Source: Pseudorhodoplanes sp. (GTDB lineage Bacteria > Pseudomonadota > Alphaproteobacteria > Rhizobiales > Xanthobacteraceae). From it: a stretch of DNA of 42,077 nucleotides. A program made the translations under genes and the position numbers. The notes under the pieces were generated by a model. That model worked only from the letters and a program-made list of their open reading frames with translations, did not search any database and was not told the origin of the DNA. The stretch is taken from positions 1-42,077 of the forward strand of contig JALHOD010000001.1 of the NCBI GenBank assembly GCA_022843165.1, in the 5' to 3' direction. This document shows positions 1 through 4,218 of this stretch, one piece after another (within the stretch, counting starts at the first letter, position 1; the number at the start of each line of letters is the position of its first letter).

Positions 1-2
1 CG

Positions 3-59
3 CGCTCAAGCGCCGGCAAGCCGGGGCAACGGGGCGGGTTCAAGAAGCGGGGACGTTAA
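3..59 (+). CDS. C-terminal tail of an unidentified upstream gene (partial)
   Basis: The frame starting at base 3 is open from the window edge to a TAA at 57-59 and encodes an 18-residue tail rich in Gly, Lys and Arg, ending GFKKRGR. Basic Gly/Lys/Arg tails of this kind are common at the end of alphaproteobacterial pseudouridine synthases and DEAD-box RNA helicases, but nothing diagnostic of either is inside the window. The stretch is too short to exclude chance; the call rests on composition and on the absence of another gene up to base 239. Confidence 0.35.
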   Translation, partial: RSSAGKPGQRGGFKKRGR

Positions 60-90
60 GGCGTTTTCGACGCGCCCTCACCTCTCCACC

Positions 91-178
91 GTCATGCCGG
101 GGCTTGACCCGGGCATCCACATTTTAACGGACCCTCCCCAAGCAAGACGTGGATGGCCGGGACGAGCCCGGCCATGAC
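91..178. repeat. Dispersed inverted repeat, family 1, copy 1
   Basis: A left arm at 91-120 (GTCATGCCGGGG...GGGCATCCAC) and a right arm at 149-178 (GTGGATGGCC...GGCCATGAC) are imperfect reverse complements around a 28-base centre. Each arm also contains its own small palindrome. A closely related copy lies at 4112-4199. Elements of this look are widespread between genes of Bradyrhizobium-type genomes. No coding role is expected; such hairpins may act in mRNA stability or termination. Confidence 0.8.
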
Positions 179-238: not shown

Positions 239-577
239 ATGCACACCGTCGTCGAAACGCCGTCCTATCTCGGCGACGCCGAACGGCTGTTCTCGCGCGA
301 AGAACGCGCCGCCATTGTCGACCAGATGGCCGCCGATCCTGAATGCGGTGTGGTCATTCCCGGTACCGGCGGCGTCCGCAATATCCGGGTCGGTTTCGGC
401 GGACGCGGCAAACGCGGCGGCGCGCGGGTGATCTACCTGTTCGGAGGCGATGACGTGCCGGTCTTTCTGCTGGCCGCGTTCGCCAAGAACGAAAAGGCCG
501 ATTTGACGGCGGCGGAGCGCAACGCGCTCGGCAAATCTGTCGCAGCAATGCTCGAAAACTACAGGACACGAACATGA
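239..577 (+). CDS. Type II toxin, RelE/HigB-like
   Basis: The 112-residue product resembles the RelE/HigB-type toxins of Pfam family PF06296. These fold like RelE and cut mRNA, usually on the ribosome. The family hallmark is visible in the middle: a Gly/Arg/Lys-rich stretch (GFGGRGKRGGARV) leading into a hydrophobic strand with FLLAAFAKNEKADLT, where the AFAKNEK block is typical. The ATG at 239 is chosen because the frame upstream runs through a dispersed repeat and the protein then has normal family length. No Shine-Dalgarno sequence precedes it, which agrees with a leaderless transcript from the promoter at 202-230. The stop overlaps the antitoxin start by four bases, so the two are translationally coupled with the toxin first, the HigBA order. 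Confidence 0.85.
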   Translation: MHTVVETPSYLGDAERLFSREERAAIVDQMAADPECGVVIPGTGGVRNIRVGFGGRGKRGGARVIYLFGGDDVPVFLLAAFAKNEKADLTAAERNALGKSVAAMLENYRTRT

Positions 578-870
578 CCAAACGCGCATTCGACAAGATC
601 AAGGCTGGCCTCGATGACGCTCGCGCGTTTCTCGACGACACAGCCGACAAGAAGAGCTATCGTGTGCATGTGCCGGCCACGGTAAATGTGAAGAAGATTC
701 GCAGACAGCTCGGACTTTCGCAGGAAAGCTTCGCAGCGACTTACGGCTTCGCACTGTCGGCCGTGCGCGACTGGGAACAGGGCCGCCGCCAGCCCGAGCG
801 CAGTGCCCGCATCCTGCTCAAGATCGTGGAGAAGGAGCCGCAGGCGGTGACACGGGCGCTGGCGCGTTAA
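574..870 (+). CDS. Cognate XRE-type antitoxin of the RelE/HigB-like toxin
   Basis: This 98-residue protein has a C-terminal Cro/CI-type helix-turn-helix from about residue 38 to 90 (RRQLGLSQESFAATYGF, then SAVRDWEQGRRQP). The QESFA and VRDWEQGRRxP wording is typical of the MqsA-like DNA-binding domains that partner PF06296 toxins. The N-terminal third (MTKRAFDKIKAGLDDARAF) is the likely toxin-binding part. It starts inside the toxin stop codon (ATGA overlap). By family precedent it neutralises the toxin and represses the shared promoter, most likely at the palindrome TACGGC-AAT-GCCGTA. The assignment of the pair is firm; mutual binding is inferred. Confidence 0.88.
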   Translation: MTKRAFDKIKAGLDDARAFLDDTADKKSYRVHVPATVNVKKIRRQLGLSQESFAATYGFALSAVRDWEQGRRQPERSARILLKIVEKEPQAVTRALAR

Positions 871-884
871 ACGTGGCAACGACA

Positions 885-1160
885 ATGACCAGGAAAACGC
901 TTGCTCCCATTCCGCCCGGCGAAATCCTGCTGGAGGAATTCATGAAGCCGAACAACATCAGCCAGAACCGGCTGGCGCGCGACATCGACATCAACCCGGC
1001 GCGGGTCAACGACATCGTGCATGGCCGCTCGGCCATCACCGCGCCGGTGGCCCTGCGGCTGGCCAAATATTTCGACACCACGCCCGAACTCTGGATGAAC
1101 CTTCAGGCCGGCTATGAACTGCAGATCGAGAAGCGCGTGCGGATCATGGCGGCGGAGTGA
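885..1160 (+). CDS. higA: HigA-family addiction module antidote, without an adjacent toxin
   Basis: The 91-residue product carries the standard HigA opening, LAPIPPGEILLEEFMKP, followed by an XRE helix-turn-helix (ISQNRLARDIDINPARVNDIVHGR) and the family ending ALRLAKYFDTTPELWMNLQ. These antidotes normally sit after a HigB-1 type toxin of about 90 residues that has a different sequence from the toxin at 239-577. No such gene lies on either side here. ATG 885 is preferred because it gives the common MTRKTLAPIPPGE start; a GTG at 873 would add four residues. It follows the first antitoxin by 14 bases and is probably cotranscribed. It could be a relic, a transcriptional regulator, or an anti-toxin acting on a HigB elsewhere. 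Confidence 0.9.
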   Translation: MTRKTLAPIPPGEILLEEFMKPNNISQNRLARDIDINPARVNDIVHGRSAITAPVALRLAKYFDTTPELWMNLQAGYELQIEKRVRIMAAE

Positions 1161-1209: not shown

Positions 1210-1983
1210 ATGAAACTTGGCTTTGAAGAATCCCAAACCGCCTACACAAACGGCTCGCAAAAAGCGCGTGATTTGACCGAGCGCTGGTTCCACGCATGGG
1301 GCTATTGCCCGAATTGCGGAGACCCAAAGATAGTTCGCTTTCCGAACAACAGCCCGGTCGCGGACTTCTTCTGTAATACCTGCAAAGAAGAATATGAATT
1401 AAAAAGCAAGAAGGGAAAACTTAGCAATCGGATCGCTGACGGAGCATTCAAAACCAAGTGTGAGCGTCTGGCGGCCAGCAACAACCCGAGTCTTGTCGTT
1501 CTCAACTACGACTTGAATAATCTAAGCGTCGTAAATCTGCTTGTCGTTCCAAAGCATTTCTTTGTCCGCGACATTATAGAAGAACGAAAGCCACTTGCGC
1601 CAACTGCACGACGTGCAAATTGGGTTGGATCAAATATTTTACTCAATCAAGTTCCGGCCTCAGGCAAGATTCATATTGTTCGAGGCGGCATACTTCGGCC
1701 AAAGGAATTGGTGTTAGCTGAATGGAAAAGAACCCTCTTCCTTCGTCAAGAAAACTTAGAGGCGCGCGGCTGGATTATTGAAGTGATGAAATGTGTGGAA
1801 GCCATCGGCAAGCAGGAATTTCAGCTTGATGATGTTTATGCCTACGAAGCAAAGCTAAGCGGCATTTATCCACGCAACCAGAATGTTAAACCGAAAATCC
1901 GGCAACAACTTCAGTTTTTGCGCGACAAGGGTTATCTGGATTTTGTGGGTCGCGGCACCTACCGCTTGCGATCTCAGGACTGA
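1210..1983 (+). CDS. dpnI: DpnI-like methyl-directed restriction endonuclease
   Basis: This 257-residue protein matches DpnI (about 254 residues) from end to end. DpnI cuts GATC only when the adenine is methylated. The PD-(D/E)xK core is intact: Asp52 in SPVADFFC, then Glu63 and Lys65 in EYELKSKKG. Four cysteines for a structural zinc are present as YCPNCG (33, 36) and FCNTC (55, 58). KPLAPTARRANWVGSNI and the C-terminal winged helix (KIRQQLQFLRDKGYLDF), which in DpnI also reads the methylated site, are both kept. ATG 1210 gives the family length; the upstream frame overlaps higA and has no homology. The gene is much richer in A+T than its surroundings (22 of 60 bases are G or C in 1381-1440, 24 of 60 in 1501-1560), a sign of transfer. 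A small inverted repeat, CGAAAG/CTTTCG (1167-1172, 1189-1194), precedes it. Confidence 0.95.
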   Translation: MKLGFEESQTAYTNGSQKARDLTERWFHAWGYCPNCGDPKIVRFPNNSPVADFFCNTCKEEYELKSKKGKLSNRIADGAFKTKCERLAASNNPSLVVLNYDLNNLSVVNLLVVPKHFFVRDIIEERKPLAPTARRANWVGSNILLNQVPASGKIHIVRGGILRPKELVLAEWKRTLFLRQENLEARGWIIEVMKCVEAIGKQEFQLDDVYAYEAKLSGIYPRNQNVKPKIRQQLQFLRDKGYLDFVGRGTYRLRSQD

Positions 1984-2036: not shown

Positions 2037-2348
2037 ATGGCGTGGTTTCTAAATTACTATAAGTGCTACCACTGCGACACTTGCTGGACCGATGAATGGT
2101 CCTGCATGTGCGATGACGACTGCCCTCATTGCGGCGCACGACACATGTCGCCCTATGAGAGCGACGAATTGACAGGAATTATCGAGCGTCGCGGCAATAC
2201 GTTTGTCGTTCTTTGGTCTCCCGACACAGCCGGCCACTCTCCGAACTACGATGAGGTCGCAAGGTTTCGGAGCCAAAAGGCGGCCGATTCATATATTTTC
2301 AAGCGTTTGAGCAGCGATCATGAATTTTCTGGCCGCCCTGATCATTGA
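2037..2348 (+). CDS. Cysteine-rich, zinc-ribbon-like small protein of unknown function
   Basis: The 103-residue product begins MAWFLNYYKCYHC and packs seven cysteines into residues 10-32 (KCYHCDTC, SCMCDDDCPHC), followed by GARHMSPYESDEL. The spacing looks like a zinc ribbon. The C-terminal half has a small alpha/beta pattern (FVVLWSPDTAG, then YDEVARFRSQKAADSYI). I recall similar unnamed proteins in Bradyrhizobium-type genomes without dpnI beside them, so a role in restriction is not established. ATG 2037 is chosen because a strong GGAGGAG lies just upstream; longer starts at 2025 or GTG 2001 are possible. It begins 53 bases after dpnI and may be cotranscribed with it. Confidence 0.8.
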   Translation: MAWFLNYYKCYHCDTCWTDEWSCMCDDDCPHCGARHMSPYESDELTGIIERRGNTFVVLWSPDTAGHSPNYDEVARFRSQKAADSYIFKRLSSDHEFSGRPDH

Positions 2349-3198: not shown

Positions 3199-4017
3199 TT
3201 ACTCCGCGCCCGCGACCGTGGCCTGCTGGTTGCTGCGCTTCAGCCCCTCGGCGACAAAGCCCGACGCCTTCATCTCCTCGACAAAACCTTTCAGATACGC
3301 TGCGCCGGCCGCCCTGCCCTGCGGCGTGCCCATGGCCTGGCGGATATCCATGAAGCGGTCGCTCATCACCCGCACCGACGGATCGGTTTTCGCATACGCC
3401 TCCAGCGGCTGGCGCACGCCGGCGGCGGCGTCGAGCCTGTCCTTCAGGAACAGCTCGACCATCGCCGCGCCGCCGCCCGCCGCAGCGCGCACCAGCTGCG
3501 CGTGTTTCAGCGTGCGGGTGAGATAGAGGTCGTAGGCCGAGTTCGGCCCGACCGCGATGCGGATGCCGGGTCGGTCGACATCGCCGACGCTCTTCAGCGG
3601 CGAATCCTTGCGCACCATGTAGGTGCCCTCGATCAGCACATAGGGTGGCGAGAACGCGATCTCGGCGGCGCGCACCGGCTCGATCGCGAGAAAGGCGACG
3701 TCCCAGGCTTTCGCGTCATTCGGCCCGGCCTTCAGCGCCTCGAATACTTTTCCGGCGGCGTCGAAGCCGATGAAGCTGACCGGAACGCCGAGACGTTTCG
3801 CCAGTTCGCGCGCCAGATCCGCCGACACGCCCCTGGCGTCCTGTTCGTCCGCGCCGCGCTGCGCCAGCACGCCGTTGCCGTAATTGATGGCGGCGCGGAG
3901 TTTTCCGGTGGGGGCGAGATCCTTGAGCACGTCAGCGGACACGGGAGAGCCTTTCGGGGTTTGCGCGGCGGCGGGCGCGGTCATCAGAGCGAGCGCAATG
4001 CAGACGATGCGGAGCAT
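3199..4017 (-). CDS. Periplasmic amino-acid-type solute-binding protein (SBP_bac_3 family)
   Basis: The 272-residue product begins with a clear signal peptide (MLRIVCIALALMTAPAAAQ) and continues as a family 3 periplasmic binding protein: GKLRAAINYGNGVLAQ, GVSADLARELAKRLGV, KAWDVAFLAIEPVRA, IAFSPPYVLIEGTYMV and the later GIRIAVGPNSAYDLYL. Such proteins deliver polar amino acids or related solutes to an ABC permease, or act as sensors. No permease or ATPase gene is nearby, so this is an orphan binding protein and its ligand cannot be read from sequence. ATG at 4017 (- strand) is chosen because the signal peptide starts there; the longer frame runs into a dispersed repeat. Confidence 0.88.
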   Translation of the reverse strand: MLRIVCIALALMTAPAAAQTPKGSPVSADVLKDLAPTGKLRAAINYGNGVLAQRGADEQDARGVSADLARELAKRLGVPVSFIGFDAAGKVFEALKAGPNDAKAWDVAFLAIEPVRAAEIAFSPPYVLIEGTYMVRKDSPLKSVGDVDRPGIRIAVGPNSAYDLYLTRTLKHAQLVRAAAGGGAAMVELFLKDRLDAAAGVRQPLEAYAKTDPSVRVMSDRFMDIRQAMGTPQGRAAGAAYLKGFVEEMKASGFVAEGLKRSNQQATVAGAE

Positions 4018-4111
4018 GACGGACCTCGCGGGCGGTTTTTCTTCCGGTGCGACTTTATATGAAAACCGGAGGACGCGCGGAATTCCCGCAAGCGGTCGGA
4101 CCGTTCTCGAC

Positions 4112-4199
4112 GTCATGCCCGCGCTTGGCGCGGGCATCCACGTCTTCGCAACAGATCGGCAAGAAAGACGTGGATGGCCGGGACAAACCCGGCCATGAC
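4112..4199. repeat. Dispersed inverted repeat, family 1, copy 2
   Basis: A left arm at 4112-4146 (GTCATGCCCGCG...CATCCACGTCTT) and a right arm at 4165-4199 (AAGACGTGGATGG...CCATGAC) pair with each other and match the copy at 91-178 closely. It lies upstream of the binding-protein gene at 3199-4017 and downstream of the gene ending at 4219, both on the - strand. Confidence 0.85.
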
Positions 4200-4218
4200 G
4201 AAACGGGTGAACGGAGAA

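Follow-up and report, generated by a model that had tools for sequence, protein, structure and literature searches.

The stretch of DNA analysed here, the first 42,077 nucleotides of its contig (hereafter the window), begins with the last codons of uvrB. Downstream lie a group of toxin-antitoxin type genes, a dpnI homologue, a gene for a small zinc-ribbon-like protein and a neighbour on the opposite strand (Table 1). The end of contig C4 is identical to window positions 1-119 over exactly 119 bases, and the C4 end and window positions 3-60 both align to a single uvrB stretch of G038, a genome of the same genus. A 289-aa open reading frame delimited mechanically from position 1114 was rejected as the dpnI gene because the homologues begin with MKLGF, which falls at position 1210. 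The NCBIfam search gave no match for the RelE-type toxin, and no HigB was recognised beside the HigA-family antitoxin. Homologues of the RelE-type toxin gene and of the gene after it also occur just upstream of dpnI in G118 (L083). Toxin-antitoxin genes recur by dpnI or in the place after uvrB (window 239-1160, L083 1173-1810, L075 4712-5011 and L061 3025-3333). Positions 84-182 and 4105-4210 carry a repeat of about 90 bases, partly palindromic, of which the host genome and the genus have many copies.

Table 1. Features at the left end of the window
Feature	Position	Strand	Remarks
uvrB 3' end	1..59	+	Stop TAA at 57-59, read by eye; rest of uvrB at end of contig C4
RelE-type toxin gene	239..577	+	PF06296, E = 5e-7; frame open with GTG from 149
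HTH antitoxin, MqsA/NadS type	574..870	+	Below NCBIfam cut-offs
HigA-family antitoxin	873..1160	+	TIGR02607, E = 1.2e-28, over cut-off
dpnI, predicted methyl-directed endonuclease	1210..1983	+	257 aa from ATG; PD-(D/E)XK domain with zinc site, about residues 1-182; winged helix, about 183-254
dpnI-linked zinc-ribbon-like protein	2037..2348	+	103 aa; ATG 2037 after GGAGGAG; mechanical ORF from GTG 2001
Right-hand neighbour	3199..4137	-	Common to G038 and G071; read by eye as transport substrate-binding protein

The first-pass annotation had described a full-length DpnI homologue with its catalytic residues, zinc cysteines and C-terminal winged helix, and this description was confirmed in every part. 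In the Pfam search the 257-aa protein matched PF06044 at E = 5.3e-66 and, over residues 184-252, the winged helix PF17726 at E = 1.4e-29. The match to DpnI in the PDB spanned residues 10-252 (E = 2.6e-80), and the PADLOC model mREase_II matched at E = 4e-96. Such a match is far beyond chance, and the predicted protein is a further member of an already known family. Asp52, Glu63 and Lys65 align with Asp53, Glu64 and Lys66 of DpnI, and Cys33, 36, 55 and 58 with its four zinc cysteines; Leu129, Arg135, Trp138 and Gly140 of the methyl cleft are present, and Lys229 and Arg231 of the winged helix are retained. The set checked consisted of the residues for catalysis, methyl cleft and winged helix named in the accessible part of PMC4117772, plus Glu64 and the four cysteines. 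All 14 positions were kept in the window protein and in 24 of 24 relatives, these 25 proteins having been picked by a start-motif pattern that missed at least L067, L082 and L089. The best of five AlphaFold models had a mean pLDDT of 75 (the other four, 50-54) and aligned with DpnI 4esj_A over 242 columns (TM 0.81/0.84, E = 1.4e-25). The dN/dS ratios were 0.03-0.15 in all nine pairs compared, dS being high in several, and purifying selection acts on the DpnI homologues.

The rarity of such an enzyme had been overstated in the first-pass annotation. Of the 391 family genomes, 35 (about one in eleven) had PF06044, spread over 12 of the 47 genera; these counts include fragments and the host genome itself. 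A class-wide draw gave PF06044 in 5 of 385 genomes, with the window's own as the only full-domain match. A scan of GTDB contigs confirmed at least 480 DpnI relatives, the best 80 of which include Bradyrhizobium, Rhodoplanes, Mesorhizobium, Devosia, Caulobacterales and Patescibacteria-type MAGs; 13 characterised DpnI isoschizomers were counted in the accessible part of a 2013 review (PMC3874153). Carriage as mobile cargo was considered and rejected: a search of 72,556 plasmid records gave two DpnI matches at E <= 1e-20, each in a chromosome-like Neisseria record of 2.17 Mb, and a search of 50,697 phage records gave one, in a partial contig (E <= 1e-10). A DpnI homologue by itself is thus ordinary as a headline. 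The adjacent zinc-ribbon gene and the place after uvrB, both overlooked earlier, are more interesting and set this DpnI apart as a variant.

The host was expected from the first-pass annotation to lack Dam and to carry CcrM instead, and both expectations were supported. No match to PF02086 (D12) or PF05869 was obtained in its genome (3.87 Mb), where a methylase could be missed since the draft is 96.4% complete and in 37 contigs. A search with PF01555 led to four places, namely a full-length CcrM (NF050803, 610 bits, under NCBI's cut-off of 830), a 222-aa frame holding part of a CcrM, a distant methylase-like protein and a place under the cut-off that was read as no DNA methylase. Besides CcrM, PF01555 was over its cut-off in L003 and L004, a family match that does not by itself fix the target sequence. 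The absence of PF02086 and PF05869 matches, together with CcrM, suggests that GATC is probably unmarked in the host. GATC is indeed frequent in the window, as had been noted (358 sites, 1.1 times the Markov expectation), but this frequency is uninformative on methylation and does not serve as a pointer to it. The DpnI-type enzyme is probably active, in a host without recognisable Dam.

Mutual exclusion between DpnI and D12 methylases was also considered across the family. Near full-length D12 (E <= 1e-9, 14 genomes with weaker matches being dropped) occurred in 2 of the 35 genomes with DpnI (G198 and G349) versus 36 of the 356 without it (p = 0.56); D12 was not significantly rarer alongside DpnI, and exclusion is therefore not supported. 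A D12 match does not itself fix the target, and the TIGR00571 scores of G198 and G349 (44.8 and 85.3 bits) were both under the cut-off of 114.85. Phages were also considered, and set aside, as a source of the mark. Dam-like genes were present in 287 phage records, but neither the 15 matches shown in full nor the organism and host names listed (all but 13 organism names and 72 hosts) included an alphaproteobacterial one.

The start codon of the zinc-ribbon-like gene lies 53 nt past the dpnI stop. In its product a zinc-ribbon-like part is followed by strands and a helix; Cys10, 23, 25, 29 and 32 are invariant in 28 aligned rows and Cys13 is nearly so. Neither Pfam nor NCBIfam gave a family over cut-off, PADLOC gave none, and the best PHROG match had E = 0.05. 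The structure model was good (pLDDT 88), with a best PDB match at only E = 0.52. The DpnD model PF14207 did not match the window protein at E 1 or three of its homologues at E 10. Among nine pairs, dN/dS of the partner was 0.02-0.05 in three; in the others dS was saturated (two), the sequences were identical (one) or the gene was not extracted (three).

A strong copy of this partner (E <= 1e-30 in the family counts) occurred in 31 of the 35 DpnI-positive genomes versus 7 of the 356 DpnI-negative ones (Fisher 7.5e-35, the genomes being related and not independent), and in all 31 it directly follows dpnI. Another 22 genomes of the family, all lacking DpnI, had weaker or partial zinc-ribbon relatives. 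The partner was missing from four genomes with DpnI, namely G047 (intact), G259 (a fragment), and G267 and G356 (distant). Among the seven genomes with the partner and no DpnI, the last 22 DpnI residues remain beside the partner in G353 (E = 3e-5), G052 has a doubtful remnant, perhaps of the first 19 residues (E = 0.44), and the partner lies downstream of uvrB in G158, G052, G090 and G353. The remnant and this position indicate loss of dpnI in G353 and a probable loss in the other partner-only genomes. In G328 (L080 6052-6811) the partner is intact and the last quarter of dpnI lies in a different frame, so that this dpnI is probably inactive.

Similarly, among the best 80 of the at least 480 DpnI loci, which partly come from the same genomes as the family survey, the partner was present in 46, being downstream of dpnI in 38, upstream in 6, and in a short form on the opposite strand in 2. 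It accompanied dpnI in 38 of 41 Hyphomicrobiales loci (34 downstream, 4 upstream) and in none of the 12 Caulobacterales loci. Among the records named as outside Alphaproteobacteria, the only copy was of the short form, in a Proteobacteria MAG that is unplaced. The two zinc ribbons on the opposite strand (L130 and L135) have this short form, which lacks the C-terminal part, and could be unrelated copies. Other small genes were observed beside dpnI elsewhere. A conserved small acidic gene precedes it in ten Caulobacterales/Maricaulales loci, one of them from Maricaulales (L133, L142, L152, L153, L158, L159, L161, L173, L181 and L182); one of five copies tested matched PF14207 (DpnD-PcfM) at E = 0.07, below cut-off, the other four gave no match, and the protein is perhaps DpnD-like. 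A different small gene lies 3' of dpnI in six Patescibacteria-type loci (L146, L155, L156, L160, L163 and L176), and the two copies searched matched no Pfam family.

The position after uvrB recurs as well. Of the 30 family genomes in which DpnI matches strongly (E <= 2e-44), 26 have uvrB upstream of dpnI, and two of the remaining four have less than 2 kb of contig on that side. For the best 80 named loci, uvrB was found in the fetched flank of 36, including 12 of 12 from Caulobacterales and 20 of 41 from Hyphomicrobiales. Within the genus of the window, G038 has uvrB, dpnI, the partner and the right-hand neighbour, and G071 has uvrB and the same neighbour with no dpnI or partner. The stretch after uvrB was read in 33 DpnI-negative genomes, a non-random choice in which some were picked for Dam-like genes. 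Seven of these had an AT-rich insert, i.e., a bin below 54% G+C among the first three bins of 500 bases, and four of the seven inserts held recognisable defence-type genes. For example, G385 (L207 8247-9053) carries a predicted Dam-family methylase gene (TIGR00571, 234.7 bits) 100 bases past the uvrB stop, together with a DGQHR/DpdB-like protein; no DpnII endonuclease was recognised beside it. This methylase is one of the six strongest D12 matches in the 391 genomes and the only Dam-family gene at the slots read. In G008 (L224 584-2308) uvrB is directly followed by genes for a BglII-family endonuclease and an MT-A70 methylase, arranged tail to tail. In G111, of the window's genus (L209 1244-2324), a PD-T4-2_A-like (GmrSD_N) sequence runs across two overlapping frames after uvrB, and the G016 insert holds a PDC-M41B-type protein. 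In the inserts of G024 and G104 the genes matched nothing in Pfam or PADLOC. Judged from these gene contents, the slot between uvrB and the conserved neighbour swaps defence genes. A literature search at the level of titles and abstract openings, covering few subscription papers, brought up neither a DpnI-uvrB slot nor a zinc-ribbon partner of DpnI among the papers listed.

The linkage of the two genes could possibly also arise if the zinc-ribbon gene were a passenger, sharing the slot with dpnI by common descent and having an unrelated job. Many of the linked copies do lie at a single syntenic place after uvrB, the seven partner-only genomes (one with a clear dpnI remnant, one with a doubtful one) keep a strong copy, and the Caulobacterales dpnI manages without the partner. 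However, 17 named alphaproteobacterial loci have the full partner although the roughly 4 kb upstream contain no uvrB (in L126 it is just beyond), the partner stands upstream of dpnI in six loci, few Hyphomicrobiales loci have dpnI alone (3 of the 41 above), and the partner-only state would be expected if dpnI were the half that is lost first. A passenger is therefore considered possible, although rather unlikely, and we propose that the partner is an accessory of the enzyme.

The pneumococcal DpnI cassette carries a second gene, dpnD, for which we know of no established role. CfuI of Caulobacter fusiformis is a GmATC-cutting enzyme reported from an alphaproteobacterium, and is likened to the window DpnI by this activity and origin alone. 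R.DpnI of Streptococcus pneumoniae (PDB 4esj, 4kyw) shares with the window protein the order of PF06044 and PF17726, the length, and the catalytic, zinc, methyl-cleft and winged-helix residues; the window gene differs in sitting in the uvrB slot and in having a zinc ribbon, not DpnD, as its neighbour. In pneumococci, DpnI, DpnII and DpnIII are alternative GATC systems at a single locus, according to the accessible part of PMC12707154, with whose account of DpnI biology the defence role suggested in the first-pass annotation agrees. The uvrB slot resembles these cassettes in holding DpnI in many genomes and a predicted Dam-family methylase in one; it differs in that this single methylase example is known from the gene alone and that the other occupants are not known GATC systems.

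Drg/NmeBII, the product of the dam replacing gene of Neisseria, is likewise a DpnI-type enzyme of a Dam-negative proteobacterium, and its gene is low in G+C and lies in an exchange locus at leuS where dam is the alternative (PMC4269198, accessible part). A record of N. gonorrhoeae, presumably drg (the record has no annotation), is 41% identical to the window DpnI over 98%. The locus differs, and the accessible part of that description has no zinc-ribbon partner. Gonococcal drg has been tied there to gene expression, viability and biofilm, and the window protein could similarly be mainly a methyl-dependent DNA-binding regulator, not a defence enzyme. However, neither the catalytic triad nor the zinc site is altered in the window protein or in any of the 24 relatives, Drg itself cuts GmeATC by the same account, other defence genes occupy the same slot, and a host without Dam would offer few marks to read. 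This role is regarded as improbable, and a restriction enzyme is preferred.

The first-pass annotation was also correct that dpnI is A+T-rich compared with its surroundings (47.4% G+C versus 64.8% in the window). Taking this as a sign of recent foreign origin would overstate it, as low G+C is common to the homologues, with dpnI below the upstream sequence (up to 1 kb) in 29 of 32 loci read, and DpnI distances track those of uvrB (Spearman 0.92 over 44 loci with both genes, reached in 0 of 999 permutations). In a quick tree of DpnI proteins, which left out 3 of the 80 named ones as too short and had no Neisseria rows, the window protein fell inside a starred Hyphomicrobiales group (96*) with Rhodopseudomonas and Bradyrhizobium. 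Streptococcal DpnI was outside it, grouped with Patescibacteria-type rows, Omnitrophica and a few others including one Alphaproteobacteria MAG. The nearest rows (Bradyrhizobium, Rhodopseudomonas, a Xanthobacteraceae MAG and two Alphaproteobacteria MAGs) agree with the earlier assignment of the host to Alphaproteobacteria. The window and G038 are sisters by uvrB, with 93% identity, but their DpnI proteins are only 66% identical, and a sister grouping of the two was rejected (AU p = 0.0097, the pair having been chosen after seeing the tree). The correlation with uvrB, the losses and these non-sister proteins indicate that dpnI has resided long in the lineage, with repeated loss and exchange at the slot. 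A recent import from streptococci or neisseriae, to which the low G+C and the non-sister copies within the genus would point, is very improbable, given the tree positions, the merely 41% identity of the gonococcal copy and the uvrB correlation, and within-family exchange at the slot accounts for the genus case.

The locus is thus probably that of a type IIM DpnI restriction enzyme, forming with a proposed accessory, the zinc-ribbon partner, a two-gene unit in the uvrB slot of a CcrM host without recognisable Dam. The expected activity of the chromosomal enzyme is cleavage of incoming double-stranded DNA at G6mATC, in which its nuclease domain and winged helix would be two separate readers of the methyl mark. 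The host would survive its own DpnI because CcrM marks GANTC and no recognisable Dam is present. The putative function of the partner is most likely that of a regulator or helper binding the enzyme or DNA. A broader suggestion, which is tentative and in our judgement doubtful, is that an alphaproteobacterial Dpn-type locus exists after uvrB, where cassettes destroying G6mATC, making G6mATC or of other kinds alternate. The accessory protein of DpnI would then be specific to the lineage, i.e., the zinc ribbon in Hyphomicrobiales, perhaps the DpnD-like acidic protein in Caulobacterales, another one in Patescibacteria and DpnD in streptococci.

DpnI is a textbook enzyme that is used as a single-gene tool. 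If the partner conserved in rhizobia and their relatives truly works with DpnI, the natural system would have a second part. Moreover, the uvrB slot may be a place to seek defence genes in Bradyrhizobium and its kin, and the content of the slot would predict which strains reject DNA from Dam-positive E. coli, which may be of practical use for engineering them.
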